A stretch of 64,000 nt of DNA from Aggregatimonas sangjinii (GTDB taxonomy: Bacteria; Bacteroidota; Bacteroidia; Flavobacteriales; Flavobacteriaceae), in assembly GCF_005943945.1 (NCBI RefSeq), contig NZ_CP040710.1, positions 3,331,501-3,395,500 of the forward strand, given 5' to 3'. The position numbers and the translations under genes were made by a program. Each line of letters opens with the position of its first letter. Position 1 is the first letter of the stretch. This document shows positions 10,245 through 49,613 of this stretch, in pieces. The notes beneath the pieces were generated by a model that saw nothing but the letters and a program-made list of their open reading frames with translations, was not told the origin of the DNA and searched no databases.

Positions 10245-10268
10245 AACTCATAACTCATAACTCATAAC
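10245..10268. repeat. Short heptamer repeat AACTCAT x3
   Basis: Three exact head-to-tail copies of AACTCAT plus a further AAC, lying 11 bp beyond the stop of the carbonic anhydrase gene. The surrounding 10013-10278 stretch has no gene. It also carries an A-rich piece with TTCAAATACAAAT near 10100, a motif seen again near 31798 and 49376 close to other heptamer arrays. Confidence 0.7.
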
Positions 10269-10278
10269 AAAGTAAGAT

Positions 10279-10791
10279 TCACTCTTTAAACCAACTGGAA
10301 TATTTAATGTAGTTCTCCGCAATCCTATCGATTTCCCCCTTGCTAAGTTCCGGACTGATATCTTTTATCTTCTTAGCGGGCATTCCTGCGAAAACAGTTC
10401 CTGGTGGCACATGGGTACCTTTGGTTAAAACGGCACCTGCCGCAATAATGCTATTACTTTCCACCACGCAATCGTCCATCACAATACTTCCCATTCCGAT
10501 CAGCACGTTATCGTGTATGGTGCAGCCATGAACGATGGCATTATGTCCTATGGAAACATTATTGCCGATAGTGGTGGGCGACTTTTGATAGGTGCAGTGT
10601 ACGACGGCACCATCCTGTACATTCACCTTATTGCCCAATTTGATAAAGTGCACATCGCCACGAAGCACGGCATTGTACCAAATACTGCATTGACTCCCCA
10701 TACTTACCTCCCCTACGATCACCGCGTTTTCGGCTATAAAACAATCTTCCCCTATTTCGGGACTTTTTCCGTTGATGGTTTTTGTTATCAT
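10279..10791 (-). CDS. Gamma-carbonic anhydrase-like hexapeptide-repeat protein
   Basis: A 170-residue left-handed beta-helix protein of the YrdA/PaaY gamma-carbonic anhydrase family. Starting at MITKTINGKS (10791), the three expected zinc ligands are His65 (VVHCT), His83 (IGHNA) and His88 (IVHGC). Arg44 in LRGD and Gln59 in VQDG, which support the active site, are also present. Hexapeptide turns run from about 20 to 135, followed by C-terminal helices. A longer reading frame up to 10926 exists only because the upstream heptamer array is free of stops; 170 residues is the family norm. The start codon lies 9 bp after the array. Enzyme activity is plausible but some family members are inactive. 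Confidence 0.88.
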   Translation of the reverse strand: MITKTINGKSPEIGEDCFIAENAVIVGEVSMGSQCSIWYNAVLRGDVHFIKLGNKVNVQDGAVVHCTYQKSPTTIGNNVSIGHNAIVHGCTIHDNVLIGMGSIVMDDCVVESNSIIAAGAVLTKGTHVPPGTVFAGMPAKKIKDISPELSKGEIDRIAENYIKYSSWFKE

Positions 10792-10800
10792 AGTTTCGGG

Positions 10801-10898
10801 TTTGTGGTTTGTGGTTTGCGGTTTGTGGTTTGTGGTTTGTGGTTTGTGGTTTGTGGTTTGTGGTTTGTGGTTTGTGGTTTGTGGTTTGTGGTTTGTGG
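10801..10898. repeat. Heptanucleotide tandem array TTTGTGG x14
   Basis: Fourteen contiguous 7-bp units, all TTTGTGG on the plus strand except the third (TTTGCGG). It fills the gap between the LytTR regulator stop and the carbonic anhydrase start, ending 9 bp before that start codon. Read on the reverse strand (CCACAAA) every frame gives the same cyclic heptapeptide PQTTNHK, and the forward strand gives FVVCGLW, so no frame contains a stop. That explains the spurious long reading frames here. Confidence 0.97.
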
Positions 10899-10946
10899 AT
10901 AAAAGCATCTTTTTTGGAAGGCACAAATCGAGTTGCCATGATAATT

Positions 10947-11675
10947 TTAAAAATAAGCCAGTAGCTCTTTCTTTTTGGAAGCGGAGACCAACAGCTCTTT
11001 TCCGTTCGAAACGACCACGCTCCCTCCTTTGCCCTTCCTGTATTTGATTACCTCGTTCACATTTACCAAATACGATTTATGTATGCGTGCAAATGGAAAT
11101 TCCGAAAGCGCTTCCTCAAAATATTTTAAGGTTTTACTGACCAAGATCTTCTTGTTTTCCAGATAAATTTCGGTATAATTATCATCGGCCTTGCAGTAAA
11201 GGATGTCCTTTACATTCAATACCTGAAAACCATCTTGCTGCGGCAAGGTAATTTTCCCTTCAACGGACTTCAACCGCGGCTGAAGTACTTTATCCTCTAA
11301 AGCACTCTCTTTTCTGCGGATATCCGAAACATATGCTACGGCTTTCACCAATTCATCGATATTGATCGGTTTCATCAGGTAATAGGCCGCGTGATTGTTC
11401 AAAGCATCTTTCGCATAATGATCGTAGGCCGTAACAAAAACCGTTTCAAAGGTCCTGTCCGGAACCTGATCTAATAAATCAAAGGCATTTCCGAAGGGCA
11501 TCTCCACATCCAAAAAAACCAGGTCGAGGGTATGTTGGTCGATGAGTTTTAATCCTTCCTGAATCGACGGCGCTTCTCCTACTAGGTTTACATCCGAACA
11601 ATACTTGGCGAGATAGTTTCGAAGTATTTCCCGACTGTTCGATTCGTCTTCAACGATAATAGCGTTTAATTTCAT
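10947..11675 (-). CDS. LytTR-family response regulator
   Basis: A 242-residue two-component regulator. The N-terminal receiver (1-120) has the acidic pair VEDE at 8-11, phosphoacceptor Asp56 in VFLDVEMP, Thr in FVTAY and Lys in LMKPINIDEL. The C-terminal LytTR DNA-binding domain (about 140-242) shows DILYCKADDNYTEIYL and FARIHKSYLVN. The start overlaps the stop of the upstream kinase by one base (TGATG), so the pair is coupled. LytTR regulators bind paired direct repeats upstream of targets; no such site is claimed here. Target genes unknown. Confidence 0.94.
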   Translation of the reverse strand: MKLNAIIVEDESNSREILRNYLAKYCSDVNLVGEAPSIQEGLKLIDQHTLDLVFLDVEMPFGNAFDLLDQVPDRTFETVFVTAYDHYAKDALNNHAAYYLMKPINIDELVKAVAYVSDIRRKESALEDKVLQPRLKSVEGKITLPQQDGFQVLNVKDILYCKADDNYTEIYLENKKILVSKTLKYFEEALSEFPFARIHKSYLVNVNEVIKYRKGKGGSVVVSNGKELLVSASKKKELLAYF

Positions 11676-13879
11676 CAGTCTTTCTTTAAAGTAAGCTTTA
11701 CACGGGTACCCGATCCATCGGTTTCCAGATTGGAAATACGAACGGCCACCTTATCCTTATACATATCGTTTAAAATTGCGATACGCTTCTTTATATTACC
11801 CATGCCCTTCGACTTGCGTTTCTTTTGGTTCATGGTCTTGAGCTCAGCGGATTTCTTTCTGCCGATGCCGTTATCCTTGATGACGATTTCAAGCGTTTCC
11901 TTATCTGTTTGCTTTACTTCGATCCGTAGATAGCCCTTTTCTTCTTTATAGCGCAACCCATGCCAAATCGCATTTTCAATATATGGTTGAAGCAACATAG
12001 GCGGAATTTGAAAGGATGCAACAGCTACATCTTCCTCAACATGTATCTTGTAGTCGAACTTTTCAGGGAAACGGGAATGCTCGAGCTTTACGTATAATTC
12101 CAACAATTCAAGCTCTTGGGCCAAGGGAATAAAATCTTCTTCCGAATTTTCCAATACCGAACGCATGAGGGTCGAAAACTCGCTCAGGTAGCGATTCGCA
12201 CTTCGTTCATCACTTTTGGCGATGTAATTGTTTACCGAGTTCAAGGCATTGAAAATAAAATGCGGATTCATTTGTGAGCGCAGCGATTTCAATGCCAATA
12301 GGTTGTTCGCCAACTTCTGTTGTTGGTTGCTACGGTAAAAAAAGAAAGTGGCCAAGCCCATAAGAATCAGACCGATGATCAACGAATAGATTACATAGCG
12401 TTGCATTCTATTGTTTTCTTGGAACAACCTTTGTTCGGTTACGGCGAGATCGTATTTACTCTGGGAGAGTTCCCGTTCCTGTTCCAAACCTTTTATTCGG
12501 CTTTGTTTTGTGGATATCTCCCGGTTAAAACGTGCGGCCCTGGAAATCTCCTGCTCCTTGCGTACGTACAACGTATCTACTAGTGCCACGTACTCTTGGT
12601 AGGTCGCCAAGGCTTTCGTAAAATCGCCACGGCTTTCATACACCTCCGACAATTTGTAGGTAGCGTCTTTTTGTACGACAAGATCATCATCTACATCGGC
12701 CGCCACGATACTACGCTGCAAGTAGGGAATCGCCTCATCGTATTTGTCTTGGGCGATGTAGGCATTCGCAATTTTGTAGTTGATCCGCTGGGTCGTTATC
12801 GAGTCTGCCTCAATACCCTTTTCTTTGCGGGCCGTTTTTGGTTTGGGCAATTTTTCAAGTTCGCTCAAACTCCTTTTACGCATCTGTATTTCTTCAGGGT
12901 AGCGGCTCTTTTCGTTATAGTAGTCCGCTACCTTTTCCTTCTCTTGTATAGATCGTTGGGGTGCCTGTTGCGAGGCCAATTCCAATGAGTTCTTATAGAA
13001 TCCTTCCGCTTCAATACCCCGGTTATCCAAAGCGTAGGCATCCGCTATCTTCGAATTGAGATCGGCCATTTTCGGAGCGATTTGGTTCTTTTTGGCAACC
13101 TTAAGACCCTCTTCATAGAATGCAACTGCCTCATCGATATCTTTTTGGCCCTTGTAGGCGTCGCCCAAGCCCTCGTACAATGCTACCTTTTGAAAAGGAA
13201 CCATAGTCTTTATTTTCAACAAGGGCCGAAACTCGGCCTCCGCCGACGTGTAGTCGCCATTCAATACGTAGGTCCTTCCCAGTAAAAGTGCTGTGCGAAT
13301 GGTTTTTTTCGCCGCCAAGGCATCTTGGTAACTTGTAATCGCCAAATCGTATTGTTTGTGGTATTGATAGACCTCACCCAAGGTGGTCAGCGAACGTGCA
13401 AGCTCTGTCTTATTGCCCCTTGTGCCTAACTGCGCGATGGACTGGGTAATAAAGTCAATGCTTTTTTCCAAATCTATTCGTTTATAGAAAATAGCGGAAT
13501 CAAGATAGGTTTTGTGCAACGAGACATCCCTTCGAGTAGAATCGCTGCTTGAGCTTCTTGAGTTGCCTGAGTATCCCTCTACCAATACCGAAATATCCTC
13601 ATCACTTTTTATCAGATAGCGTACTGTTTCCAATTCAGGGCTTTCGACAATCAGTTCATCACCTACATTAGCATCGATTTCAAATTCGCCCAAAAAATTG
13701 GTTACGGTATACTCCCCCCTATTGGTCGACACGGCCACACCGGAGAGTGGCTCCAGTGTCTCCTTAACTTTCACCGAACCCTTGATTTGCAGGCTTTTGT
13801 TCGCATTTTCGGATACTTGTGAAAAGGCCATTGCCGTAGCAAAAAAAAGGACTACCGCTATGTGAATTCTTCGTTTCAT
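11675..13879 (-). CDS. TPR sensor histidine kinase of the LytS/YehU type
   Basis: A 734-residue kinase. After a signal peptide (to about residue 20) there is a carboxypeptidase-regulatory-like sandwich (about 27-105), then TPR helices (about 120-450, for example YQYHKQYDLAITSYQDAL), a coiled-coil, and one membrane segment (about 477-498, YVIYSLIIGLILMGL). The His_kinase domain follows, with His540 in QMNPHFIFNALNSV, and a GHKL ATPase end with IENAIWHGL, DNGIG and GMGNIKKR. So it likely senses in the periplasm with TPRs and phosphorylates the overlapping LytTR regulator. The signal sensed cannot be told. Confidence 0.92.
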   Translation of the reverse strand: MKRRIHIAVVLFFATAMAFSQVSENANKSLQIKGSVKVKETLEPLSGVAVSTNRGEYTVTNFLGEFEIDANVGDELIVESPELETVRYLIKSDEDISVLVEGYSGNSRSSSSDSTRRDVSLHKTYLDSAIFYKRIDLEKSIDFITQSIAQLGTRGNKTELARSLTTLGEVYQYHKQYDLAITSYQDALAAKKTIRTALLLGRTYVLNGDYTSAEAEFRPLLKIKTMVPFQKVALYEGLGDAYKGQKDIDEAVAFYEEGLKVAKKNQIAPKMADLNSKIADAYALDNRGIEAEGFYKNSLELASQQAPQRSIQEKEKVADYYNEKSRYPEEIQMRKRSLSELEKLPKPKTARKEKGIEADSITTQRINYKIANAYIAQDKYDEAIPYLQRSIVAADVDDDLVVQKDATYKLSEVYESRGDFTKALATYQEYVALVDTLYVRKEQEISRAARFNREISTKQSRIKGLEQERELSQSKYDLAVTEQRLFQENNRMQRYVIYSLIIGLILMGLATFFFYRSNQQQKLANNLLALKSLRSQMNPHFIFNALNSVNNYIAKSDERSANRYLSEFSTLMRSVLENSEEDFIPLAQELELLELYVKLEHSRFPEKFDYKIHVEEDVAVASFQIPPMLLQPYIENAIWHGLRYKEEKGYLRIEVKQTDKETLEIVIKDNGIGRKKSAELKTMNQKKRKSKGMGNIKKRIAILNDMYKDKVAVRISNLETDGSGTRVKLTLKKD

Positions 13880-14105
13880 TACGCTTTTAAGATAACGTAA
13901 ACTTAGCGGATTTATGCGGTACTAAAAAATGGCAAAAACCTTAAAAAAGGACTAGAAAAGCTGTTTTTCATAGGCTTACGCAACCGGAAAACCGTTTCAC
14001 TCGATCAAAAGGTGATTTCACTCATTACCTGTTTTTTTTGAACTACTTCGGAGATACATTTATCCCGAAATGAATTTGTTCAACATCTATAAAACCACAG
14101 ATAAA

Positions 14106-14618: not shown

Positions 14619-14626
14619 GCAACGAT

Positions 14627-15475: not shown

Positions 15476-15565
15476 AATTACGCAATAACAACATTCCATG
15501 TCTGTACGAAAAGCCCACAAGTCTTGGAGGCATTAAGGACAAAGGAGTATAATCACATCATAATC

Positions 15566-16744
15566 ATGAAAAATTTAAAAAATCTTATCGGAATGGGCTT
15601 GATGACCCTTGCTTTTACAACGACCTACGGCTGTGAAACAAAAATCAAAAAAGAGACCAAAACCTTAATCGCCCATGCCGTAACCGCTGACGACAGCGAG
15701 CCAAAGAACAATACGGTCAAAATCGCTTTATTATTGGATACCAGTAACAGTATGGATGGGCTGATCAATCAAGCCAAAGCCCAGCTTTGGGATATCGTAA
15801 ACAAATTCACCCATGCCAAATGCGGCAATGAAGAGCGACCGGCATTACAGATTGCCCTTTATCAATATGGCAACGATAATCTTTCCTCAAGGGAAGGTTA
15901 TGTACAACAGGTCTTGGGATTCAGTGATGACTTGGACGAGATTTCGGAAAAACTCTTTTCATTGACCACCAATGGCGGTGAAGAATTCTGTGGGGAGGTC
16001 ATTCAAACCTCATTGAAACAATTGGATTGGGGCAAGAACGAAGATCATCTCAAAATGATATTCATTGCCGGAAACGAGCCTTTTGACCAAGGCAAACTGA
16101 ATTATCAGGATGCAGTGACCAATGCCAAGGAAAAAGACGTGGTAGTGAATACCATATTCTGTGGTAACTACGAACAGGGTATCAACACCTACTGGAAGAA
16201 CGGAGCGCGTCTTACCGGTGGGGAATACATAGCGATAGACCATAACCGGGAAATCGTTCATATAGATACGCCGTACGACGAAATTATCATCAAGCTCAAT
16301 TCAAAATTGAACAAAACCTATATCTCCTACGGTGCTTTGGGAGCCTCGAAAATGGAATCACAGCGAATACAGGATTCCAATGCCATGGAAATGGAGGAAG
16401 CCGTGGCGGTAAAGCGGGCCGTGAGCAAAAGCTCTACACTCTACAAAAATTCGAAATGGGATTTGGTAGATGCCGTCGAAGATGAGATGGTCGAGGTTTC
16501 GGATATCCCCAAAGAAGATCTCCCCTCTGAATTAAGAGGAAAATCCAACACCGAAATAGAAAACTATATCGATACAAAAAAGGCGGAACGCAAAAGAATT
16601 CAAAAAGAGATCCAAGAAGCCAATAAAAAGCGTGAGGCCTATATCGCCAAGAACCAAAAAGAAGGTAGCACTGGGGAATTGGAAAATGCCATGCTCAACG
16701 CTATAAAAAAACAAGCGGAGAAAAAGAACTACACTTGGGATTAA
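15566..16744 (+). CDS. VWA-domain lipoprotein
   Basis: A 392-residue protein started at MKNLKNLIGMGL, since an upstream ATG at 15524 would displace the signal peptide. The lipobox is TYGC with lipid Cys23. A von Willebrand A domain occupies about 50-265 and has a full MIDAS signature at Asp58, Ser60 and Ser62 in LDTSNSMDG, so divalent-metal-dependent ligand binding is likely. The C-terminal third is highly charged and helical (about 330-385, KAERKRIQKEIQEANKKR), probably a coiled coil. It is the last gene of the rhodanese-DUF4349-VWA group. The ligand is unknown. Confidence 0.82.
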   Translation: MKNLKNLIGMGLMTLAFTTTYGCETKIKKETKTLIAHAVTADDSEPKNNTVKIALLLDTSNSMDGLINQAKAQLWDIVNKFTHAKCGNEERPALQIALYQYGNDNLSSREGYVQQVLGFSDDLDEISEKLFSLTTNGGEEFCGEVIQTSLKQLDWGKNEDHLKMIFIAGNEPFDQGKLNYQDAVTNAKEKDVVVNTIFCGNYEQGINTYWKNGARLTGGEYIAIDHNREIVHIDTPYDEIIIKLNSKLNKTYISYGALGASKMESQRIQDSNAMEMEEAVAVKRAVSKSSTLYKNSKWDLVDAVEDEMVEVSDIPKEDLPSELRGKSNTEIENYIDTKKAERKRIQKEIQEANKKREAYIAKNQKEGSTGELENAMLNAIKKQAEKKNYTWD

Positions 16745-16754
16745 GAAAACGATT

Positions 16755-16859
16755 GTTTCAGGTTTCAGGTTTCAGGTTTCAGGTTTCAGGTTTCAGGTTT
16801 CAGGTTTCAGGTTTCAGGTTTCAGGTTTCAGGTTTCAGGTTTCAGGTTTCAGGTTTCAG
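16755..16859. repeat. Heptanucleotide tandem array GTTTCAG x15
   Basis: Fifteen exact head-to-tail copies of the 7-bp unit GTTTCAG begin 11 bp after the VWA gene stop and lie between two convergent genes. Every forward frame gives the same heptapeptide cycle (FQVSGFR), which creates a spurious short reading frame over 16735-16965. Confidence 0.97.
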
Positions 16860-16966
16860 GGAAATTAGAAATAACAGTTTAGGAAGGCAATTCGGCAACT
16901 CGGAGAAACGAATTCAGGTTAGAAAAGGGCCTTTACAAAAATTTTTAGGTTGGTTGGTGTTGTAAG

Positions 16967-16998
16967 TGGGTCTACTTTGGGAAGGGTAGGCCCATTTT
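16967..16998 (+). terminator. Likely terminator after the VWA gene
   Basis: TGGGTCTAC (16967-16975) and GTAGGCCCA (16986-16994) form a 9-bp stem with one G-U pair, followed by TTTT. It reads best on the plus strand and would close the rhodanese-DUF4349-VWA transcript. It abuts the end of the convergent PorP gene. Confidence 0.5.
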
Positions 16999-18022
16999 AC
17001 TGTGCAGCAGGGCAATAGCAGTCGTATTTGCGTTCCGACTGGCCAAAATCATACCCCAGTGTAATTTGGTGAAAACCGCCATTATCTATAATGGCCGAAC
17101 CCGACTGATAAGAATAGTTGTAGGACACCAAAAAGTTCTTTATGTTCGCGCCGATAATAGGCGTAAAAAGCTGTAGTTTTTGCTCTCCGAAATTATCGCC
17201 ATCGATAAATTGGGCGCCGTCAAAACTTCTTCGATACGAGATACCGCCCCAAATTCTTCCGAACGATACATCGCGATACGCCTTCATATTGATATCTATG
17301 GTTTTCTCCTTGGTCCACTCGGTCAGTTGAAATAACAACGAGGGTTCGTATTGCCACACATTTCGCCCGAAAATATAACCAGCGGAAACCAAGTACCTTC
17401 TTAGATTGTCGATAGCCGGTACATTATCAGGGTTGTTTCGGTTCACGCGATACAAGTTGCGTTCAGAACCCGTTAGGAGATTCGTAATTGCGAAATGGGA
17501 ATAGAACTCCATTTTGTTATACGACATACCAAAATCAACATTGTAGTAACCTGCATTGATAGTACCATTACCAACAGCGCCATCGGGAACGCCCCCAGGA
17601 GAAACAAATTCGCTCTCGTCCAGTCTGCTCTGTAAATAGGTTGGACTCAGCCCAAAAGAGAGCTGGTTCAAATACCTATCATCGCCTCCTAATTTAAGGT
17701 GGTGGGCATAGGTTACTTTCACACCCGATTGGGAATGATAGCCATTCGCATCATTAAAAACCTGAATACCAAAACCGCTATTGCTGTCACCCGCTCTCAT
17801 GTGAAAATTGGCGGTCTGCAAGTTCGGTGCATCCTGCACATCAAACCATTGCTTTCTTGCCGTAACCCTAATTTTGGCCCCTTCGCCGATTCCGGCCATC
17901 GACGGATAAACCAAATAATAGTTATCGGCCAAATAGTCGAAATATACAGGAATACCCTCTTGGGAAAAGGAGAGGTGGCTAAAGGTAAAAATTGATAAGA
18001 CGATTAAAAGGCGCTGTATCAT
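16997..18022 (-). CDS. Second PorP/SprF-family type IX secretion protein (orphan)
   Basis: A 341-residue outer-membrane barrel of the PorP/SprF family. Start at MIQRLLIVLSIFTF gives a clean signal peptide ending at LSFSQ; the reading frame extends 20 codons upstream without adding anything. The family's N-terminal pattern appears as YFDYLADNYYLVYPSMAGIG rather than the usual QYMFNxxxxNPAYAG. It ends in KYDCYCPAAQ with two cysteines close together. Unlike the copy at 4380 it has no adhesin or PorE gene beside it, so its cargo is not suggested by context. It is divergent from nfu. Confidence 0.85.
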   Translation of the reverse strand: MIQRLLIVLSIFTFSHLSFSQEGIPVYFDYLADNYYLVYPSMAGIGEGAKIRVTARKQWFDVQDAPNLQTANFHMRAGDSNSGFGIQVFNDANGYHSQSGVKVTYAHHLKLGGDDRYLNQLSFGLSPTYLQSRLDESEFVSPGGVPDGAVGNGTINAGYYNVDFGMSYNKMEFYSHFAITNLLTGSERNLYRVNRNNPDNVPAIDNLRRYLVSAGYIFGRNVWQYEPSLLFQLTEWTKEKTIDINMKAYRDVSFGRIWGGISYRRSFDGAQFIDGDNFGEQKLQLFTPIIGANIKNFLVSYNYSYQSGSAIIDNGGFHQITLGYDFGQSERKYDCYCPAAQ

Positions 18023-18114
18023 AAGGTTGATTGGGAATGAAAAGTAGACTAAATAATACTTATAACGGTTGAAATGCAACATTATTATATACCGCTTACC
18101 ATAGAAAATCGTTG

Positions 18115-18122
18115 TATTTTTG
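18115..18122 (+). promoter_or_regulatory. Candidate -7 box of nfu
   Basis: TATTTTTG fits the TAnnTTTG consensus exactly and ends 15 bp before the nfu start codon. No clear TTG element is found at the expected distance, so support is partial. Confidence 0.4.
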
Positions 18123-18137
18123 CATCAAATAGGCATT

Positions 18138-19040: not shown

Positions 19041-19167
19041 ATCTCAAATGTTGGAAATAGCGACCGAATGTTAACGCTTTTCAGATGAAAGCTTGCGCAA
19101 TCGCGATAAGTCCTTTCGATTATGCCCTCAAATCAGTATATTGGGATATAATCAAAAATCTATAATT

Positions 19168-30497: not shown

Positions 30498-31757
30498 TTA
30501 TTCCGTTCTTAAAGCATCTATAGGTCGGACCTTTATCGCACTATTAGCGGGTATAAACCCGGCCAAAAGACCCGATACCATCAATATCAACAGCGCACCC
30601 AAAACGACCCCTAAACTCACACTTGGGTTCAGAAACATATCGACTGGGCCATTGGCATCCAACAGCGCATTTACCGCATAAATGAAGAAAGCCCCGAATA
30701 TTATCCCTGTCATTCCCGACATGATGGTCAAGAAAATGGATTCCATTAAAATCTGTAGCTTTATCGACCAAGGATTCTCGCCCAACGCACGTCTAATACC
30801 AATCTCCTTCGTACGCTCTTTTACCACGATGAGCATGATATTGCTCACGCCGATTATTCCGGATAGCAGTACCAAAATACCAACGAAATAGGCAATAAAC
30901 TGGAGTGCCCCAAAGAGACTTTCCACCCTGTTGTACTGCTCGTATAAATCAAAGTAGCCTACAGCGCGTTTGTCTTCCGGATGTATTTTTCGGCTTGTTT
31001 TGACGACGTCTACGATGGCTTCCTTTAAGCTTGTAATGGAGCTGCCATCCTGGGCGGTTATGGCCATCCAACCCACATCATTTCCCCTATTAAAGGCTTG
31101 CGAGAATGCCGTAAAAGGCACAAAAATCTGTTTCTGTCCTTCCTCGCCATCGCCATCATTACTTTTCTTTTTGTAAATTCCGACCACCATGAAATTTACA
31201 CCCTGAATCTTGATGTAGGTTCCCAAAACCTGCTCGTCTTTATCGTAGAGTCCGTTTCTTACCCCATCGCCAATAATGGCCACCTTGCGCTTTTCATTGA
31301 TATCGTTGTAATTGATAAAGCGACCTGCGGTAATGCTCATTGGGTCTTGATTGATGATTTCAGGATAATCGCCATATACATTGTAGGCCCCTGCGTTGAT
31401 GCCTCTGATCACATTGTTGCCCCCTCTAAAACCACTAAGTCTGTTTCTGGGTGATATGTATCGCAAATTAGGGACGTTGTCCCAAATGGATTGTACGTCC
31501 TCTACCTTAAAATTAAACTCCCTACCCTTTGGGAGTCCCTTGTAAGGCTTTGAGGTTGCCTGAGACCACATGAACATGGTATTGGTAGCGATATCGCCAA
31601 AGTCCTGTTTGATTCCGTTTTCAAGACCTTTTCCCGCAGAAAGCAGGATGATCAAGATGGCAATGCCCCAGAAAACCCCGAACGCCGTCAATACCGTACG
31701 GAACCAATTGCTGGTCAGTACTTCCAAAATCTCTTTCCAACGATCTTTGTTGAACAT
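30498..31757 (-). CDS. MacB-like ABC transporter permease, copy 3
   Basis: A 419-residue permease: LEVLTSNWFRTVLTAFGVFWG before and in helix 1, a periplasmic MacB core (about 45-280), and the FtsX end with VKERTKEIGIRRALGENPWSI. It has the same order and size as copies 1, 2 and 4. It is followed after 63 bp by the second adaptor. No ATPase is fused or adjacent on its upstream side. Confidence 0.93.
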   Translation of the reverse strand: MFNKDRWKEILEVLTSNWFRTVLTAFGVFWGIAILIILLSAGKGLENGIKQDFGDIATNTMFMWSQATSKPYKGLPKGREFNFKVEDVQSIWDNVPNLRYISPRNRLSGFRGGNNVIRGINAGAYNVYGDYPEIINQDPMSITAGRFINYNDINEKRKVAIIGDGVRNGLYDKDEQVLGTYIKIQGVNFMVVGIYKKKSNDGDGEEGQKQIFVPFTAFSQAFNRGNDVGWMAITAQDGSSITSLKEAIVDVVKTSRKIHPEDKRAVGYFDLYEQYNRVESLFGALQFIAYFVGILVLLSGIIGVSNIMLIVVKERTKEIGIRRALGENPWSIKLQILMESIFLTIMSGMTGIIFGAFFIYAVNALLDANGPVDMFLNPSVSLGVVLGALLILMVSGLLAGFIPANSAIKVRPIDALRTE

Positions 31758-31922: not shown

Positions 31923-31991
31923 CTTTGCGCTTTGCGGTCCCTGGACTATGCTCAGGGAAATTGTCAAGGGTTAAGGTTCAAGGTTCAAAGA
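31923..31991. repeat. Composite intergenic repeat: heptamers plus a dispersed hairpin
   Basis: TTTGCGC/TTTGCGG is a 7-bp doublet (31924-31937). CCCTG-N9-CAGGG (31939-31957) is a hairpin whose loop reads GACTATGCT. TCAAGGG, TTAAGGT, TCAAGGT and TCAAAGA (31964-31991) are four degenerate 7-bp units. The loop core recurs near 49463. Confidence 0.65.
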
Positions 31992-32003: not shown

Positions 32004-32043
32004 AATTCTTAATTCCTAATTCTTAATTCTTAATTCTTAATTC
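32004..32043. repeat. Heptanucleotide tandem array AATTCTT x5.7
   Basis: Five full copies of AATTCTT (the second is AATTCCT) plus AATTC, ending 8 bp before the stop of permease copy 4. It lies in the gap that separates copy 4 from copy 3. Confidence 0.9.
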
Positions 32044-32051: not shown

Positions 32052-33296
32052 TTATTCGTCCCGTATGGCATCGATGGTGTGTATATTAGCGGCCCGCCAG
32101 GCAGGAAAAAATCCCGCAACCGCACCTGCAAAAATCAATACGAAAACAGTGGTAATGGCCACATTAAAATTGACTGACGGGTTCATGATATAATCGACCT
32201 CGATGTGGGGCCCAACGATTTCAAGCAATCCCATACTAAATATGAGTCCCCCAAAACCGGAAATGGCGGTCACGAAAATGGCCTCATGTAAAATCATACC
32301 TATAATCGACCATGGTTTTGCACCCAATGCTTTGCGAATTCCGATTTCCCTAGTGCGTTCTTTGACAACGATCAGCATAATATTGCTTACACCCACTACC
32401 CCGGCCACTATGGTACAGATGCCCACAAACCAGAAAAAGAGTTTAATGTTCCCTGTCAACCCATAGTATCGTTTTGCCTCTTCCATAGCACTCCAAACCT
32501 CAACACCGCCCCCGTCGTTCGGGGCAATGGTGTGTGCTTGTTTCAGATAGTCCTGAAGTTCATCCTTAAACTGAACGGCTTGCGCTACGGCCTCATCAAA
32601 ATTTTCAACTTCCGGCAGTGTAAAGGCCATATTGTTGATGCGATCGCCCCCGTTGAACACTTTTTGGGCCGTGGTAATCGGAATATAGATGCGTTCTTCT
32701 TCGCGGTCTTCGGTTTCCGAATAGACCCCCACGATTTTAAACTGCACCCCTGAGATATCGATGAGCTCGCCAATCGGCGTATCGACCTCATTAAAGACGT
32801 CATTCTTGATTTTCTTACCAATGACCGCTACCTTGGCAGTATTGACCTCGTCTTGGTAGATTAGAAAACGCCCCTCGTGCATTTTCGCATTCTCTATTTG
32901 CTGAAATTGGTAAGACACTCCCTGAACCCCATATATAAGGGCCTCCTTCCCATAATTGACGGTAATATCCCGAACAAAAATCCGTGGCGATTTATGCTCG
33001 ATAGCATCTTGCAGTAAATTGGATGAAAATTGATAGTTCTCGTTGCGAAGTTGAATTCGGCGACCGGGATTCAAGCCTTTGAACTCTTTTGTGGTAACAC
33101 CGGGCCATGCCCAAACACTGGTCGATGCATCCTGTTCGAATTCGTGGGCGATACCATTTTGCATACCTTGACCAAAGCCCAATAAGATTACCAGAATAAA
33201 AATACCGGAGGCTACGGATAGCCCAGTTAGGAAGGTCCGTAATTTATTTTTACGGATGGTATCGAAGATTTCCTGCCATCTTTCGATGTCGAACAT
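32052..33296 (-). CDS. MacB-like ABC transporter permease, copy 4
   Basis: A 414-residue permease with FDTIRKNKLRTFLTGLSVASG around helix 1, a periplasmic core (about 45-270) and the FtsX end VKERTREIGIRKALGAKPWSI. It is the first gene of the export locus but is set apart from copy 3 by 294 bp made of repeats and low-complexity sequence. It may be transcribed together with the rest or separately; no promoter is clear. Confidence 0.93.
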   Translation of the reverse strand: MFDIERWQEIFDTIRKNKLRTFLTGLSVASGIFILVILLGFGQGMQNGIAHEFEQDASTSVWAWPGVTTKEFKGLNPGRRIQLRNENYQFSSNLLQDAIEHKSPRIFVRDITVNYGKEALIYGVQGVSYQFQQIENAKMHEGRFLIYQDEVNTAKVAVIGKKIKNDVFNEVDTPIGELIDISGVQFKIVGVYSETEDREEERIYIPITTAQKVFNGGDRINNMAFTLPEVENFDEAVAQAVQFKDELQDYLKQAHTIAPNDGGGVEVWSAMEEAKRYYGLTGNIKLFFWFVGICTIVAGVVGVSNIMLIVVKERTREIGIRKALGAKPWSIIGMILHEAIFVTAISGFGGLIFSMGLLEIVGPHIEVDYIMNPSVNFNVAITTVFVLIFAGAVAGFFPAWRAANIHTIDAIRDE

Positions 33297-39806: not shown

Positions 39807-40511
39807 CTATTGTAATTTGAAGGTAATCGGAATACTGAAAGGTACCCTAACCGCTCTACCCCTTTGCTTACCAGGCGTCATTTTGGGCAGCTTACTTATG
39901 ATACGGGCAGCTTCTTTTTCTAAGTTCTTATCGGGGCCACGCATTCTTACGTTTCCGATGCTACCATCCTTTTGAATGGTGAACATTACACTTACCCTAC
40001 CTTGAACACCCATATCTTGAGCGATTTCAGGATAACGGAAGTTTTTACTAATGTGCTTTTGCATCATTTTTTGAAAACAGGCTCTTTTATTGCTTTCCCC
40101 CTCACATCCTGGGAAGATGGGTACGTCTTCAATAACCGCAAAAGGAACATCGATATCTTCGTCAACCTCTTCAGTTGCCACGTCCTCTACTTCGATGATT
40201 TCCTCTTCTTGTGAGGTCTCCGTAGATTCGATCACCGTTTCCTCAACCTCCTCTTCGTCTTCAACCACCTCGATAATTTCAGGAGCCGCTGGTGGCGGTG
40301 GCGGTGGCGGTGTTTTAATTTGCTCTGTCATCGGCACTTCTTCATCTAAATCATCATCAACGTTCATAGAAATGTCGTACTCGCCGCTGTCGTCGTATGT
40401 TTTCCATTCGAGCGCACCGTATGTAAGCGCCATTACCAACGCCAGCCCTATAACGAAATAGAGTCCGCTATTGCGGCCTACATCGGCTTTCGGATTTTTT
40501 TTCAGTTCCAT
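39807..40511 (-). CDS. tonB: Energy transducer TonB
   Basis: A 234-residue TonB-like protein. The inner-membrane anchor is at about 19-35 (FVIGLALVMALTYGALEW). A periplasmic spacer starts with PPPPPPPAAPE and then is very acidic (VVEDEEEVEET to EDVATEEVDEDIDV). The TonB C-terminal domain (about 150-234) shows YPEIAQDMGVQGRVSVMFTIQKDGSI and VPFSIPITF. It couples proton-motive force through ExbBD to outer-membrane receptors; ExbBD are not nearby. Several TonB paralogs are usual in Flavobacteria. Confidence 0.92.
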   Translation of the reverse strand: MELKKNPKADVGRNSGLYFVIGLALVMALTYGALEWKTYDDSGEYDISMNVDDDLDEEVPMTEQIKTPPPPPPPAAPEIIEVVEDEEEVEETVIESTETSQEEEIIEVEDVATEEVDEDIDVPFAVIEDVPIFPGCEGESNKRACFQKMMQKHISKNFRYPEIAQDMGVQGRVSVMFTIQKDGSIGNVRMRGPDKNLEKEAARIISKLPKMTPGKQRGRAVRVPFSIPITFKLQ

Positions 40512-41407: not shown

Positions 41408-41431
41408 TCTTAATAATTTTAATTAGCAGAG

Positions 41432-41462
41432 CAAATGTAGCGGATTCCCAAGGAGTATTCAA
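41432..41462 (-). promoter_or_regulatory. Promoter of gcvH-vanZ
   Basis: On the reverse strand TTG (41462-41460), 20 bases, then TACATTTG (41439-41432), an exact TAnnTTTG box 24 bp before the gcvH start. It lies in the 125-bp gap after sprA. Confidence 0.7.
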
Positions 41463-41532
41463 GGGAAAATAATTTTTGGAAAACAAATCTTCAGACAACC
41501 GGAAGCGATTGCTTCTTTGCGAATTTCGGACC

Positions 41533-44500: not shown

Positions 44501-47500
44501 GCTTCGGGCCAAATATCCCTAGGGCTGATTGCGCCCCATTCGGTAAATTGCAGGGGAAGCTCTATCTGATAAAAGTTCTCTGAAAAGTCAGTTCCTATGC
44601 GAAGGAAACCGACCAATGGAGAAATAGATGGTCGCAATTCTATACCTACCTCTTCGGCATGCATGAACATCTTGATTTTTTCGTACTGTCGTAAGTCTAT
44701 GTTCAAGCTCTTGAACACCGCACGCGAATCTTCCGGTTCTAGATTGTTGACCACTAAGGAAAGAGATTGCTCGTTCTGGCGCACCACGGTATTGTTGTTG
44801 TTGAGCGGCTCGCGAATTACATCGGGTGGCAGGACATAGCGAATCGGACTTCTTTGCTCATTTTCCTGTATGTTTACCGCATTTACATCGAGCGAAGTCG
44901 CGTCGGAGGAAGGCAAGTCACCATTCTCCTCAAGACTTTTGGTATACGTACGCCAATCGCCACGCACCAGATCCAGCGTCGCGAAACGTAGCACGACGTC
45001 ATCGGTGAAATCGGTAAGGTACATGCGCATGGTACTGACGGACCTCAAATCACTGATACCACCAAAGGTATTTTCCTCCGTGATATCGCTTAACGGAATT
45101 TTATACTGAATCCAGCGACTTCTTTTTTGACTACCATCGGGAATTCTAGGAGCGGCATAAAGTGTGTCCCGAATATCAGTAACGTATTGGTCGCCGATAT
45201 TGGTTCCAGGCTTGATTTCAACTTCATAACGGTAATAACTGTCTATGGTGTTCATGGTCAAATCCCTATCGATATCCTCAACGTCTGGCAAGGTGGTATT
45301 GCCCCGGTTGTCGTTGGTTACCTCGATAGGAGAGTTACCCTCGGTGTTGTTGAAATTAAGGTATCGGTTGAGGATACTTCCTTCCCGCTGTAAGAAGTAT
45401 TCGTAATTGTCATTGGCGGGGTCGGGACCCGTGCCATATCGGCCTTCATCGACATCCGCTAATCCATCGAGACCCACGTCTTGCGCGGTCCTGGAGGCTT
45501 CATCAACATCAAAGGCATATACCAGCGCCTGTGTTTGCGGTACCTCTCCCCAATCGGTCGGTCTGGTATCGGTGTCTTGCTCGGTTACAGGGAGACCGTT
45601 TTCATATTGTTTTCTACCATCAGGAAGAATATCTTCCGAAATGTTCCCTAATTCGATTACTAATTTACCAGGGGTGGTGCCCACATTATCCTCATAGGGG
45701 TCCATTACCCAGAATTGAATGAACTCTACATTGGCCTGTTCGAAGTTGGTACTGTTCAACGAGCGCATGACCCCTCCCCAGTTTTCCTGCGGATTATCGG
45801 TAAAACCCTCTTCCGTATTCGCATTGTAGGGCCCTTTGATGGTTGGATAATAAGCAAGGTCAAAAGTGGTTTGCTGTTGTGTCTGGCCTTGTGCCACCTC
45901 TACCCTAGGAAAAACCTCATCGATAAAAATACGTCGTGATTCGTTTAAGGAAATATCGCTGTCACTAATACTTGCAGGTCTTTGGCTCGTATAAAAAATC
46001 GGATCAATAGTATACCACGCTACCTTGGCCCGATTGAATCCGGCACCGAGTGGATCTCCCGAAGGACCGCGCCTGTCGGTTGGTATACTTGCGAGGGTCC
46101 ATCCGAGGGAAGACCGGATATCGATCAACGCCTGCGCCCCTTCAAAATCATCTAAATAGGTAGTGGTTTCGCCTTGGAAGTCCGCATTTTTCGGGGAACC
46201 TGGCTTTAACCAAGCGACTTCACCACGTAGCGAGAGATTGGAAGGCACATCGGTGTCGATATTCGGTAGTTTATTGACCATTCTTGTGAGAAAGGGCACT
46301 TCCGTTGAAAAGTTCCCGTTGAATCCGAATATCGTATTGTTGACTGGCTCTACGCCGAAGTTCGATTTTTGGGTAAGCGGGCGTTCGTTCAGCTTTAAAA
46401 GCGTACCGCCCAAGACAAAATTCTTATTCACCTGATGTTCTACATTTATTCCGGTAAAATTTCTGGTCTGCTGCCCGAAAACGGCATTATTCTCTACCGA
46501 AATATTGATCGGCACATTGGAAGCCTCCAGATTGGGGTCGAGAATCTGAACCGTACCCGCCTGATAATTTACCGTATAGTCGATGCCCTCCTGTAGCGTT
46601 CTGCCGCCGGCTGTAACCCTTACCGAACCACGTGGCACATTAAAGGCCCCGATGGGAATACCATTGCTCCCCTCCGATTTGTAACGCCCTTTTAAAATAA
46701 ACTTATTTTTTTCGGGATCTTGCAATGCAGCTGCCTTGGTAAGCTCGTACATATCACGGAATACATACTTTTCCTGATTGGCGTCATAATTCTCCGGAGA
46801 ACCATAACCTTCAATACTTCCGCCGTTCAATCTACGATACAGGAAGCCTCCAAAAGGTTCCGCCTTGGTGAAAATGATACGCCCGTTTCGCGTATCGACC
46901 GTTAAACCGGGCACAAAATCGAAAAAGCCATCACCACCCGGTTGAAGATCGTTATAAACGTTCAATCGGTCTAAGTTAAAGACATTCAATAGGATATCCT
47001 CCTCGAGTCCCTCCGGCCAATTGGTGCCGGGGCCTTCGTCTACAGGGGTGATATAGTTTCTCGGCGTTGGATCAGAATACAGAATATTCATCTTAAAGTC
47101 TTCCTGGCTCAATTGAAAGGCGCCCGTAGCATAGATATTCTTCATCATCAAATCCCAAATTGGATCGCTGATATTGGTAATATTACTTTTAAGAAGTTTT
47201 AAGATCAATGTATTGTTATCGATAATCGGATTCGCGGGCCCTACCTGTACCGTAGTGGCTTCAAGGCCTCCATTAGCGAACTCCCCTACCTGATAGACAT
47301 TCCCGTTAAAGGTATATTGGTACGCCACGCCCAGCACCTCATCGTTACTCAATCGTTGGTTTAATGAGATGTAGCCTAATTGCGTATTAAAATCATAATC
47401 CCTCCCCTGTTCCAATTTCCGAGCATTTTCCAGAATGGCGAAATCAGTACCTTGACTTGGGGAATAGCCCGCATTAAATGACGCGGAATTAAATCCGCTA

Positions 47501-48777
47501 TCTACGGTTGCGATGTCTCTAATATTGTCATTTAAGGCGCCTGAACCCGAGGCAATCAATGCGGGATCATAATCATTGGCATTGTTTCTGGGTAAATTAC
47601 CCGTTGCAGGATTTGTATTGAAGAATCCGGGTGCCGCGGCGCCTACGTTCCCCAATCTGGTCTGCTCGGAAAGGGCCTCCCCTAAATCCTGAAGGGCCAC
47701 GATATTCCTGACATTCAATGTCTGTTGGTTCCGGTTCGTTACCCATACCTCCAAACGGGTAATCTGTACCTGACTCCGGATATACGGATAGCTCTCCATC
47801 GCCGTATCGTAGTTATCCCTAAAGTACTGTCCGAGAAAAAAGTGTTTGTCCTCATCATAATCCAGGGCGGAAAGCGAAAAGTCGTTAATGGTACCACCAC
47901 CTTGCGCAACGACCGTATTGTTTTGGGATTGTTGTTGTGAGAATACCGCGGTCACGGTAGTCTTACCGAATTGCAATTGTGTCTTTACCCCGAAAAGGCT
48001 TTGCGCCCCTTGGATGAGCGAACTGTTCAAGGGCATATTTACATTACCGAATTCTATTTTTCGAATGATATCGTCATCGGTGGGCGTATAATCGATCTTG
48101 AATATATTCTGAAAATCGAAAGTAGCCTCGGTATCGTAATTTACGTTTGCCTGTAGGCGGGTTCCGATGGTACCAAGCATACTTAAGCTAATGCGCTGAT
48201 CGAAATCGAAAGAAAGATTGCTTCTGTTCCGTGGTGAAAGTGCGGGGTTGTCGTTTTTTTGCCAGATGACCCCTAAATCCATCGCGACAGAACCTTGTGG
48301 ATCTATCTGGATTTCGGTTCCCCCGAAAATCGATTCGAAAAATTTGTTGTTTACATAAAAGTTAGGAAGCAAGTTTTTGCGCGCTTCCTCACTCCCCTCC
48401 TTCTTGCCGGAAAACGCATCTGCCTTTTCCTTGAAATAAGCCTTCATTCCCTCTTTGCGAGCCAGCTCATAATATTGTTCCGGAGTGAGTATGATAGGGT
48501 AACCGATATCGAAATCCCCTAGTTTCTCAGAATAGACATACCCATTGATTTTCGGGTCGTAGATGTATTTTGACACGATGCTGTCCGGATTCTCCAAAAG
48601 GATTTTTCCCAGATCGAATCCGGTCTTAACAGAATCTACTTGTTGGGTGAGAGAATCCTGCTCTTGTTCGGTGGGGTTATCCTGTGCATTAACCGCACCG
48701 GTGCCAAGAAAGCACAGTGCGAATAGGATGGTAAGCTTAAATGAAAATTTAAGAATGGTTGTGGCCCCTGTTTTCAA
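41533..48777 (-). CDS. sprA: SprA, outer-membrane channel of the type IX secretion system
   Basis: A 2414-residue protein, the usual size for SprA/Sov. It has a signal peptide ending near AVNAQ and repeated long beta-barrel segments across the whole chain, with many strands such as NTIFGFNGNFSTEVPFLTRM near 760. It ends NSGFTLRYNFGN. SprA forms the giant single-chain barrel through which T9SS cargo (type A and B C-terminal domain proteins) passes, and it is essential for gliding and secretion. It starts 5 bp after ruvA ends. The order maeB-ruvA-sprA-gcvH is widely kept in Flavobacteriaceae, which supports the call. A Lys-rich region near 1940 (KTDKAGNNEKEKKKTPAK) is likely a loop. Confidence 0.96.
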   Translation of the reverse strand: MKTGATTILKFSFKLTILFALCFLGTGAVNAQDNPTEQEQDSLTQQVDSVKTGFDLGKILLENPDSIVSKYIYDPKINGYVYSEKLGDFDIGYPIILTPEQYYELARKEGMKAYFKEKADAFSGKKEGSEEARKNLLPNFYVNNKFFESIFGGTEIQIDPQGSVAMDLGVIWQKNDNPALSPRNRSNLSFDFDQRISLSMLGTIGTRLQANVNYDTEATFDFQNIFKIDYTPTDDDIIRKIEFGNVNMPLNSSLIQGAQSLFGVKTQLQFGKTTVTAVFSQQQSQNNTVVAQGGGTINDFSLSALDYDEDKHFFLGQYFRDNYDTAMESYPYIRSQVQITRLEVWVTNRNQQTLNVRNIVALQDLGEALSEQTRLGNVGAAAPGFFNTNPATGNLPRNNANDYDPALIASGSGALNDNIRDIATVDSGFNSASFNAGYSPSQGTDFAILENARKLEQGRDYDFNTQLGYISLNQRLSNDEVLGVAYQYTFNGNVYQVGEFANGGLEATTVQVGPANPIIDNNTLILKLLKSNITNISDPIWDLMMKNIYATGAFQLSQEDFKMNILYSDPTPRNYITPVDEGPGTNWPEGLEEDILLNVFNLDRLNVYNDLQPGGDGFFDFVPGLTVDTRNGRIIFTKAEPFGGFLYRRLNGGSIEGYGSPENYDANQEKYVFRDMYELTKAAALQDPEKNKFILKGRYKSEGSNGIPIGAFNVPRGSVRVTAGGRTLQEGIDYTVNYQAGTVQILDPNLEASNVPINISVENNAVFGQQTRNFTGINVEHQVNKNFVLGGTLLKLNERPLTQKSNFGVEPVNNTIFGFNGNFSTEVPFLTRMVNKLPNIDTDVPSNLSLRGEVAWLKPGSPKNADFQGETTTYLDDFEGAQALIDIRSSLGWTLASIPTDRRGPSGDPLGAGFNRAKVAWYTIDPIFYTSQRPASISDSDISLNESRRIFIDEVFPRVEVAQGQTQQQTTFDLAYYPTIKGPYNANTEEGFTDNPQENWGGVMRSLNSTNFEQANVEFIQFWVMDPYEDNVGTTPGKLVIELGNISEDILPDGRKQYENGLPVTEQDTDTRPTDWGEVPQTQALVYAFDVDEASRTAQDVGLDGLADVDEGRYGTGPDPANDNYEYFLQREGSILNRYLNFNNTEGNSPIEVTNDNRGNTTLPDVEDIDRDLTMNTIDSYYRYEVEIKPGTNIGDQYVTDIRDTLYAAPRIPDGSQKRSRWIQYKIPLSDITEENTFGGISDLRSVSTMRMYLTDFTDDVVLRFATLDLVRGDWRTYTKSLEENGDLPSSDATSLDVNAVNIQENEQRSPIRYVLPPDVIREPLNNNNTVVRQNEQSLSLVVNNLEPEDSRAVFKSLNIDLRQYEKIKMFMHAEEVGIELRPSISPLVGFLRIGTDFSENFYQIELPLQFTEWGAISPRDIWPEANEMDVLLDDLKKIKSLRINLRNDGVPLNETRYYEIEDGEPVEKLATDPRADGRLRIGIKGNPSLGNIRSMMVGIKNISDRTADGEVWFNELRLAGLDNKGGWASVVAMDANIADFANITATGSQSTSGFGAIDQMPNERAREDAISYDVVTNLNLGQLLPPKWGIQLPFNYGISEQLITPEFDPEFDDLRLEDLVETASSEEDAENIRERAEDYTKRTSINLIGVRKNRGEEADANFYDIENFTFNYSYNQTDHRDFEVEDLKDQSVVAGFVYNHNFKPVEVAPFAKKDSLFNGRYWQWLKELNLSLLPTTISVNSDINRQFNRQTFRNVIPAGEDPANFLSLPELQQRNYLFNWQYTVNYSLTKSLRLNFIGSNNNIVRNYLDDPNNPESEVDKALRLWDGFWDLGEPNRHSQQMQLNYEIPFAKIPALDFIDAQYSYTSNFDWQRGGDALNLAVAQEQNPGVASGELDIVSINTVQNANTHNLTASLTMQKFYDLIGLKKRSGKSQQQAPVKTDKAGNNEKEKKKTPAKTSKLWNTAVDIVTMVKRLNVNYNESNGTVLPGYTQSVGFIGSARPTIGFVFGSQADVRFDAARNGWLTGFDGFNEQFIRRTTKQLNITATAQPVQDLTIDLVADRQFSESLQENYQIDIVDGEQQYVPQTPNNFGNFSISTMMIGTAFGKSDEFDSENFEEFKQNRITIANRIISDRAQPFGTPDEDGFPERYGKTSQDVLLPAFFAAYTGQSADRVNLDIFRSIPIPNWNIKYTGLMRNKWFKKKFTRFSLQHGYRAAYSINSFQTNLEKQQLLKDDLGAFNPENGDLLPDLILNNVVLNDAFNPLLRVDFEMKNSVSVLAEVRTDRTLSLSLDNNLMTEINGKEYTLGLGYRIKDVKFVTNIGGNKTRLKGDLNLKADLSLRDNITIIRNLDIDNNQITSGQNLLSIKFTADYALTKNLNALFFYDHSFSQFAVSTAFPQTTINSGFTLRYNFGN

Positions 48778-48782
48778 ACTAA

Positions 48783-49364
48783 TTACAGATTTTTCAGCGT
48801 CTGTTTTATAATATTTTCGACGCTTAAGGAGGAATCTTGGGCAAGCACTTTATCGATCACGCGCTCTGCCTGCTTACGTGCGAATCCAAGAACCTCTAAA
48901 GCTGATAACGCTTCATCTTTATTTGTATTGTTCGAACTGAGGGAAACTTCATCAATATCGTAGATTTTTAAAATCTTGTCTTTTAGGTCCAAGATGACCC
49001 GCTGTGCCGTTTTCGCTCCAATGCCTTTGATACCCTGTATCGTAGGTACGTCGCCAGTTGCAATAGCGTCCCTGATTTGAAGGGGTGACAACGAAGACAA
49101 CATGCTTCGTGCAGTGCTCGATCCTATACCCGAAACAGAGAGTAAAAGCCTAAAAATCTCGCGTTCCGATTTTTCGGCAAAACCGAACAAGGTATGGGAG
49201 TCTTCCTTAACCTGCAGGTGGGTAAACACTTGAATCTGTTCGGCATCGGATATCTTGGAAAAGGTGTTCAACGATATGTTCACAAAATAGCCAACTCCAC
49301 CACACTCGATTATCAAGTTGGTGGGGTTCTTTTCTACTAGTTTTCCTTTTAGGTGGTGGATCAT
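48783..49364 (-). CDS. ruvA: Holliday junction branch migration protein RuvA
   Basis: A 193-residue RuvA. Domain I is an OB fold with MIHHLKGKLVEKNPTNLIIECGGVGYFVNI (split across 1-30). Domain II has two helix-hairpin-helix motifs, LLSVSGIGSSTARSML and IQGIKGIGAKTAQRVI. Domain III (about 145-193) binds RuvB. RuvA holds the four-way junction for the RuvB motor. It lies just upstream of sprA. A heptamer array and a dispersed hairpin fill the 293-bp gap before its start. Confidence 0.96.
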   Translation of the reverse strand: MIHHLKGKLVEKNPTNLIIECGGVGYFVNISLNTFSKISDAEQIQVFTHLQVKEDSHTLFGFAEKSEREIFRLLLSVSGIGSSTARSMLSSLSPLQIRDAIATGDVPTIQGIKGIGAKTAQRVILDLKDKILKIYDIDEVSLSSNNTNKDEALSALEVLGFARKQAERVIDKVLAQDSSLSVENIIKQTLKNL

Positions 49365-49456
49365 GGGTTACGGTTCAAATACAAATTCAAGAATCAGGTT
49401 ACAAGTTTCGAAGAATTGATGCATTGTTGTGATTGGTAATGACTTTTAAGTGTTGG

Positions 49457-49478
49457 CACTTCGACTGCGCTCAGTGTG
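49457..49478. repeat. Dispersed hairpin with GACTGCGCTCAG core
   Basis: CACT and AGTG flank a loop reading TCGACTGCGCTC. The core GACT-GC-GCTCAG matches GACT-AT-GCTCAG at 31945-31956. It lies just before the TGCTCGG array. Confidence 0.6.
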
Positions 49479-49488
49479 ACATTTAAGA

Positions 49489-49613
49489 TGCTCGGTGCTC
49501 GGTGCTCGGTGCTCGGTGCTCGGTGCTCGGTGCTCGGTGCTCGGTGCTCGGTGCTCGGTGCTCGGTGCTCGGTGCTCGGTGCTCGGTGCTCGGTGCTCGG
49601 TGCTCGGTGCTCG
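49489..49613. repeat. Heptanucleotide tandem array TGCTCGG x17
   Basis: Seventeen exact copies of TGCTCGG plus TGCTCG, between the end of maeB and the start of ruvA. This is the longest repeat in the window. It ends 44 bp from the maeB stop and begins 125 bp before the ruvA start. Confidence 0.97.

Follow-up and report, generated by a model that had tools for sequence, protein, structure and literature searches.

The window analyzed here is a 64,000-nucleotide stretch of the Aggregatimonas sangjinii genome (Flavobacteriaceae; contig NZ_CP040710.1, positions 3,331,501 to 3,395,500), and the subject of this analysis is a set of six intergenic tandem arrays in it whose repeat unit is 7 bp. These are repeats of a known kind; what is new here is that the arrays are young, that the same gap is used in other genera, and that units are shared within the genome. 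A first-pass annotation made from the letters alone had reported six arrays with a 7-bp unit at named positions. The observation was correct and its interpretation partly right: Tandem Repeats Finder (TRF) returned 26 rows in the window, and all rows of period 7 fall into these same six arrays at the places given earlier. They are listed with their strand, unit, copy number, and TRF percentage.

10245..10268, plus strand, AACTCAT, 3.4 copies, 100%
10799..10898, minus strand, GGTTTGT on the plus strand and AACCACA on the gene-sense (minus) strand, 14.3 copies, 97%
16755..16860, plus strand, GTTTCAG, 15.1 copies, 100%
31964..31988, plus strand, TCAAGGT (degenerate), 3.6 copies, 83%
32004..32043, plus strand, AATTCTT, 5.7 copies, 93%
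49489..49613, plus strand, TGCTCGG, 17.9 copies, 100%

The genes flanking the arrays were identified as follows.

9128..10012, minus strand, acyl transferase domain gene, FabD-like (PF00698)
10279..10791, minus strand, hexapeptide-repeat gene, gamma-carbonic-anhydrase-like (below the NCBIfam cut-off, named by resemblance)
10947..11675, minus strand, LytTR response regulator
15524..16744, plus strand, VWA-domain protein (PF00092)
16997..18082, minus strand, PorP/SprF type IX secretion membrane protein
30498..31757, minus strand, MacB/FtsX-type permease
32052..33296, minus strand, MacB/FtsX-type permease
48783..49364, minus strand, ruvA (TIGR00084)
49658..51955, minus strand, malic enzyme fused to phosphotransacetylase

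The 10245 array lies 10 bp beyond the stop of the carbonic-anhydrase-like (CA-like) gene and 232 bp ahead of the FabD-like start. The 10799 array fills most of the gap between the response regulator stop and the CA-like start, which is referred to below as the CA gap. The 16755 array is found in the convergent gap between the VWA-domain gene and porP, and the 31964 and 32004 arrays share the gap between the two MacB-type permease genes, with 8 bp separating the latter from the right-hand gene's stop. Between the 49489 array and the malic-enzyme stop there are 44 bp, and the start of ruvA is 124 bp away. The 10799 array adjoins a start, and the 10245, 16755, 32004, and 49489 arrays are nearer a stop. 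That all the arrays lie between genes and none inside one was also part of the first-pass annotation, and the gene calls together with the domain matches of the flanking genes agree with it for all six. The caveat is that the reading frame of the 10279 gene has no stop across the 10799 array and is open as far as 10926; in the homologues, the match begins at an ATG equivalent to the one with its last base at 10791, which is not part of the array. SprA and PorP/SprF, of the type IX secretion system, are also encoded in the window, and the named matches to the CA-like protein, at 90 to 82% identity among the best 80 of 520, are almost all from Flavobacteriaceae or genera of that family. The host belongs to that family, and the pointer in the first-pass annotation toward filamentous cyanobacteria is not applicable.

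When only exact arrays were counted (at least three copies, periods 5 to 20), the window contained five with a 7-bp unit and a single one with a 6-bp unit, the latter being GGTGGC (3.7 copies at 40291) within an open frame of 234 amino acids; 200 equally long windows simulated with a first-order Markov model produced, in total, 22 arrays of period 5, one of period 6, and one of period 7. The arrays are heptanucleotide simple-sequence repeats (SSRs) in the sense of near-perfect head-to-tail 7-nucleotide units longer than chance, with the 31964 array degenerate at 83%. The window gave no Rfam match at gathering scores, and a structured RNA of known family was rejected on that result. A REP (repetitive extragenic palindromic)-like element near CTGAGCGNAGTCGAAG, a motif picked by eye and searched with up to two mismatches, occurs at 49459-49474 and 31940-31955, at distances of 15 and 9 bp, respectively, from two of the heptad arrays. 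The 80 homologous loci described below contain just two elements of this type, located inside the heptad islands of the sister loci L093 and L112. The association was compared with the chance rate over all bases and not over gaps, and it is not claimed here.

The first-pass annotation had named a genome-wide excess of unit length 7 as a test, and such an excess is present in a sample of the source genome (G000, 4.72 Mb) that comprised 40 stretches of 20 kb plus the window, or 864 kb. In this sample TRF reported 20 arrays of 2.8 or more copies; 12 of these had period 7, the others having periods of 6, 8, 9, 11, 16, 18, and 60, and 7 was the commonest unit length among the longer repeats. Exact runs of at least 9 in its intergenic part numbered 20, 11, 11, and 10 at lags of 7, 14, 21, and 28, whereas none of the remaining lags between 1 and 30 had more than 4. 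A similar picture was obtained from 80 homologous loci (the best 80 of 520 relatives by the CA-like protein; 1.38 Mb). There the exact arrays had period 7 in 11 of 16 cases, the intergenic TRF arrays in 12 of 18, and the coding arrays were multiples of three in 9 of 15; the corresponding lag counts were 17, 11, 19, and 7, versus at most 6 elsewhere. Assemblies do err at arrays, and copy numbers may be wrong. That the arrays themselves are products of assembly is nonetheless scarcely credible: the source genome is one contig of 4.72 Mb, period-7 arrays occur in many independent assemblies, and the flanking genes are syntenic with those of relatives.

The age of the arrays was assessed in ten genomes of the genus, the source genome included; these are comparisons between species, with one genome of the source species (L-numbers designate compared loci). 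Heptad arrays were found at the CA gap in none of the nine congeners, and at the ruvA gap no comparable array was found in the seven congeners that are readable whole, the other two loci ending at contig ends. Lesser repeats at the ruvA gap consisted of two copies of another heptamer in L029, 4.4 degenerate copies at 80% in L031, and a weak degenerate match in L032 that by eye lies within the end of the upstream frame. The VWA-porP gap of L037 is array-free at 99 bp, and the CA gap of L037 reads as that of the nearest congener, L118. Because the congener sites are empty, the arrays would have arisen within the genus, or else have been lost from all the congeners seen. The recent expansion proposed in the first-pass annotation is thereby supported at the gaps that were checked. 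The same pattern, of shorter gaps without repeats in close relatives, is described for TAACTGA arrays in Gramella and Aequorivita (PMC4679880).

Outside the genus, the CA gap was readable in 79 of the 80 homologous loci (L075 is N there). In eight of these 79, heptad arrays separate the response regulator from the CA-like gene, and the remaining 71 have the same gene pair without such an array. The units, one locus per line, are as follows.

L045: AACCACA, the window unit at the CA gap
L049: CAGTAAT
L051: CACCTAA
L052: CATAACT, the window unit at 10245
L068: CTAACCT
L082: GTCTAAA
L093: AACCGAC with CAAAACT
L112: CACCAAA

Full and empty sites occur together within Arenibacter, with L049 and L082 on the full side and L053, L054, and L115 on the empty side. 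Among 650 other gaps, arrays were found in two loci, L044 and L049, the latter at the orthologue of the window's 16755 gap. A scripted tally gave 7/60 for the CA gap and 3/650 for other gaps (Fisher p=2e-6); its distance rule placed the L093 gap, which by eye is the CA gap, among the other gaps. Pooling the three gaps that hold window arrays gave 9/225 versus 1 in about 505 (Fisher p=1.6e-4), an approximate figure in which 67 and 78 were subtracted from 650 to give the other gaps and 80 CA gaps were assumed. It is the CA gap that carries the evidence for reuse, because arrays were present in 1/67 of the VWA-porP gaps and in 0/78 of the CA-fabD gaps. At the ruvA gap, arrays were detected in 2 of 28 loci from other genera (L199 and L200). 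When the presence of an array at the CA gap was placed on a tree of the CA-like protein, which is weak, at least six changes were needed, three of them forced by well-supported branches. Just past the CA-like gene, where the window has AACTCAT, two loci contain arrays of other periods: a period-8 array, CCAACAAC, in L085 (10545-10598) and a period-6 array, AAACTT, in L052 (10575-10640).

The first-pass annotation had described the unit sequences as unrelated and freely varying. This description was broadly accurate between genomes and failed within the source genome. The 40 period-7 TRF rows, which include a few overlaps (L225 and L093) and one array placed inside a frame (L006 14650), represent 32 distinct units. 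Three of 12 of the source genome's own units recurred in other genomes, versus 0.78 expected (p=0.023). Three copies of AACCTGA were found in 3 of 117 family genomes and of the reversed word in none; for AACTCAT the figures were 3 of 117 and 13. A hidden common rule was considered as well, in which the units would be kin of one repeat family with the form AACNNNN. Such heptads do occur five times in a row in 77 of 117 family genomes and six times in 89 of 197 class genomes, they outnumber the reversed pattern in 58 versus 26 and 64 versus 35 genomes (comparisons made from the nonzero rows, 84/117 and 103/197 genomes), and AAC or GTT is present in four of the six window units. However, AAC or GTT occurs in 15 of the 32 distinct units versus 12.7 after shuffling of letters (p=0.20), even though richness in AAC heptads had been the reason for choosing the genomes behind 6 of the 40 rows; the reversed pattern is itself frequent (68/117 and 67/197 genomes), and the window words are rare elsewhere, as the counts for AACCTGA and AACTCAT show. 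This grammar, which had been suggested by eye and by pattern searches, was dropped after the composition test and the word searches, and we regard it as very improbable.

Within the source genome, the unit of the 16755 array (GGTTTCA in another rotation) is present in at least three exact copies at exactly three places, at 2.60, 3.31, and 3.35 Mb. These sites are unlinked, and comparison of their 600-bp flanks revealed nothing shared beyond matches of about 12 bp (E=0.2); a shared element around the GGTTTCA arrays was rejected on that result. A second unit is found at two sites within the sample, and AACTCAT in three copies has a second place in the genome, at 4.64 Mb. Among 15 sampled rows there were four same-unit pairs, compared with 0.15 in shuffles, and none of 20000 shuffles gave a number as high. 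Abundant seed words were rejected as the cause: outside arrays, the array words are not unusually common as single heptamers (percentiles of 0.70 to 0.92 for the rotations of GGTTTCA and 0.09 to 0.72 for ACTTCCC). These results show that units are shared among unlinked loci inside the source genome and rarely between genomes, and this use of words private to a genome is the most interesting point of the analysis.

One way to account for private words would be a dedicated copying process, in the form of a mobile or templated element that writes heptad arrays at chosen gaps from a template belonging to each genome. The occurrence of a single unit at three unlinked sites whose flanks are not homologous and the four same-unit pairs in 15 rows are consistent with it. 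So too are composites of two heptads (14 bp) repeated at unlinked places within single genomes, for example at two places in G118 and five in G290, and the finding that six consecutive AACNNNN heptads matched 918 times in G318, a genome of the same class, versus 23 for the reversed control and 142 in the next highest genome of that search. However, no flank is shared (at three sites only), the search patterns that yielded the composites themselves select for heptads, and slippage combined with rare exchange between arrays gives the same picture; the reversed-pattern control for the G118 composites is uninformative, CTTC read backwards being CTTC. We consider such a process distinctly unlikely.

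Several further observations concern individual arrays. The 3.31-Mb GGTTTCA-type array has 14 copies (G000 3309215-3309313; L020 5215-5313) and lies between a methyltransferase-like gene, identified by eye on the minus strand, and mutS1, whose match begins at 3309571 on the plus strand. Variant units lie toward the left end, with a perfect right end, in this array (L020 5215), in L017 7663, and in the window array at 10799, and it is possible that this reflects a polarity of growth. In L303, L305, L308, L353, and L304, pairs of heptad arrays occur in inverted order (a GTT-type array, then an AAC- or C-rich one) within one gap, some of them looking complementary enough to form a hairpin.

The strand composition of the arrays provides a separate line of evidence. 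Among units with at least two G+C, 15 of 28 had only C or only G, versus 8.3 expected (p=0.0045). An outward rule was formulated, according to which the G-rich strand reads away from the nearest gene end, for arrays at most 60 bp from that end and with the other end at least three times further. It held for 64 of 80 arrays in the exploratory set; of 157 arrays, this set left out 18 that lay at locus ends, 5 that lay inside frames, and 3 that had no orientation. After this exploration the rule was recorded and then scored on later sets, two of which were outside the plan, with the exploratory arrays removed. These gave 2/4 (of 6 arrays from 20 stretches), 14/20, and 14/21, or 30/45 pooled (p=0.036); the two later locus sets left out 5/34 and 12/41 new arrays. 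Beside starts, the sense strand had more C than G in 22 of the 23 arrays of the exploratory set and in 10 of 11 arrays of the later sets, compared with a baseline of 58.5% (678 to 480; p=0.024). Beside stops, 20 of 34 arrays in the later sets followed the rule (p=0.39); it was therefore not borne out there, and was kept for starts only. Bacteroidota make little use of Shine-Dalgarno pairing, and a G-poor sense strand just ahead of the start would be what a leader in these organisms tolerates.

The same composition might instead indicate that the arrays are elements selected at the RNA level. G-poor, unstructured heptads before starts or after stops would act as leaders, as sites of Rho-type loading (a notion taken from general knowledge), or as sites for a protein stepping by 7 nucleotides, with the period under selection and the sequence not. 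The C/A-rich sense strand of arrays just upstream of starts, above baseline in both sets, would be expected from this, as would the number of only-C or only-G units and the reuse of the CA gap. TAACTGA heptads are likewise described as lying mostly in one orientation before starts, and heptamer-binding cold-shock proteins are discussed for them (PMC4679880). However, the orientation was not borne out at stops, the array at the CA gap is dispensable in that 71 of 79 readable loci do without it, the longest window array (49489) breaks the proximity rule at 124 bp from a start, and mere tolerance predicts a G-poor leader equally well. Selection at the RNA level is an unlikely explanation in our view.

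With moderate confidence, we favor the explanation that the arrays are young, long heptanucleotide SSRs, located in gaps that tolerate added DNA, which grow by slippage and whose units spread within a genome. A pair of heptamers would lengthen 7 nucleotides at a time, through slippage of strands or through unequal exchange, and variants would be amplified in register, such that the period outlives the sequence. L093 reads CAAAACT (six copies), TAACACT (two copies), and TAACATT, and L112 contains a similar succession in fewer copies; with such in-register change, the period can persist while the word changes. Seeding between arrays was added to the scheme because slippage alone does not give one word at three sites. 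By template switching or by conversion between arrays, a unit may occasionally be seeded at other loci of the same genome, which would result in a private word list for each genome. Arrays beside start codons would be filtered to those with a G-poor sense strand, as the leader probably needs, and no array-specific function would be needed. Loss of mismatch repair was rejected as a cause on the evidence of mutS1, which was detected above cut-off in the source genome and in 9 of 9 congeners. Loops of 7 nucleotides are larger than those that MutS is known to handle well.

A number of points weigh against this explanation. The heptad excess is uneven among genomes: period 7 accounts for only 3 of 12 arrays in 20 stretches (400 kb) taken from six further genomes of the family, and around ruvA, in 40 loci from as many genera, the counts at lags of 7 to 28 are 4, 3, 2, and 3 versus at most 3 elsewhere, a slight excess. 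In these ruvA loci the coding arrays were multiples of three in 36 of 37 cases and the intergenic arrays multiples of 7 in 3 of 6. The window was chosen as array-rich, with 6 TRF rows in 64 kb versus 9 in the other 800 kb. CA-gap arrays show clustering when placed on the tree (as low a value was reached by 2 of 500 shuffles), and the eight CA-gap loci are therefore not eight independent origins; a gap that is reused could also be under selection. Slippage alone gives no reason for 7 over 5, 8, 10, or 11 and leaves one unit at three unlinked sites unexplained, and copying between loci is something that we infer from the identity of the units.

It may be that the pattern is broader and that genomes of Bacteroidia have private 7-nucleotide vocabularies copied among unlinked intergenic sites at a limited number of gaps, with the step fixed and the sequence not, by a templated or exchange-based process rather than by independent slippage. 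We put this forward only tentatively, as a possibility with the odds against it. The mechanism in the first-pass annotation, copying or slipping by 7, gains partial support from the period-7 excess in the genome sample, and the idea itself is already in print. As cited in PMC4679880 and PMC4692102, the heptanucleotide excess and slippage by 7 come from Mrazek (2007), who found 7 to be the commonest class in most genomes and proposed slippage tied to a 7-nucleotide polymerase contact. The window arrays resemble those SSRs in having a unit of 7 as the commonest class; as presented in the citing papers, the earlier work compares repeat counts between genomes, whereas the present results concern empty sites, the reuse of a gap, and the sharing of units within a genome.

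Two other heptamer systems invite comparison. Direct repeats of TAACTGA occur in Beggiatoaceae, Cyanobacteria, and five Bacteroidetes (MacGregor 2015, PMC4679880). Like the window arrays they are intergenic heptamers, and in Gramella and Aequorivita they form long arrays accompanied by repeats of other heptamers. They are described as lying mostly in one orientation ahead of start codons. They differ in being one fixed word across phyla, discussed in that source as transferred or as a binding site, while here the word changes from genome to genome; none of the six window units is a rotation or complement of TAACTGA. The GGGAATC and GGGGA(C/T)T repeats of Xanthomonas and Nostoc (Rehm 2015, PMC4692102) are also intergenic and variable in copy number, and the majority are described as lying between the same genes in two Xanthomonas species. 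Their units are described as having runs of three or four Gs and as quadruplex-forming, with the same word in both Xanthomonas species, and GGG is absent from every consensus unit in the window. Our search of the literature, mostly without subscription papers, did not find reuse of a gap with changing heptamers, or heptamer words private to a genome, in Flavobacteriaceae.

The microsatellites of contingency loci, such as the tetranucleotide SSRs of Haemophilus, are slippage-prone, mostly have short units, and are tied to surface genes. The window arrays are tandem repeats of the same slippage-prone sort, with units of 7 nucleotides, and are situated beside ruvA, malic enzyme, porP, permease, and CA-like genes.

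The question of why the unit is 7 dates back to the 2007 count of heptanucleotide excess. The Flavobacteriaceae offer full and empty sites in one genus, the same gap used in several genera, and a word that can be traced within a genome. Site-by-site slippage, spread from site to site, and leader selection therefore make distinct predictions that are testable in this family. If arrays near starts alter expression, they would also be length-variable tuners of the genes they precede.

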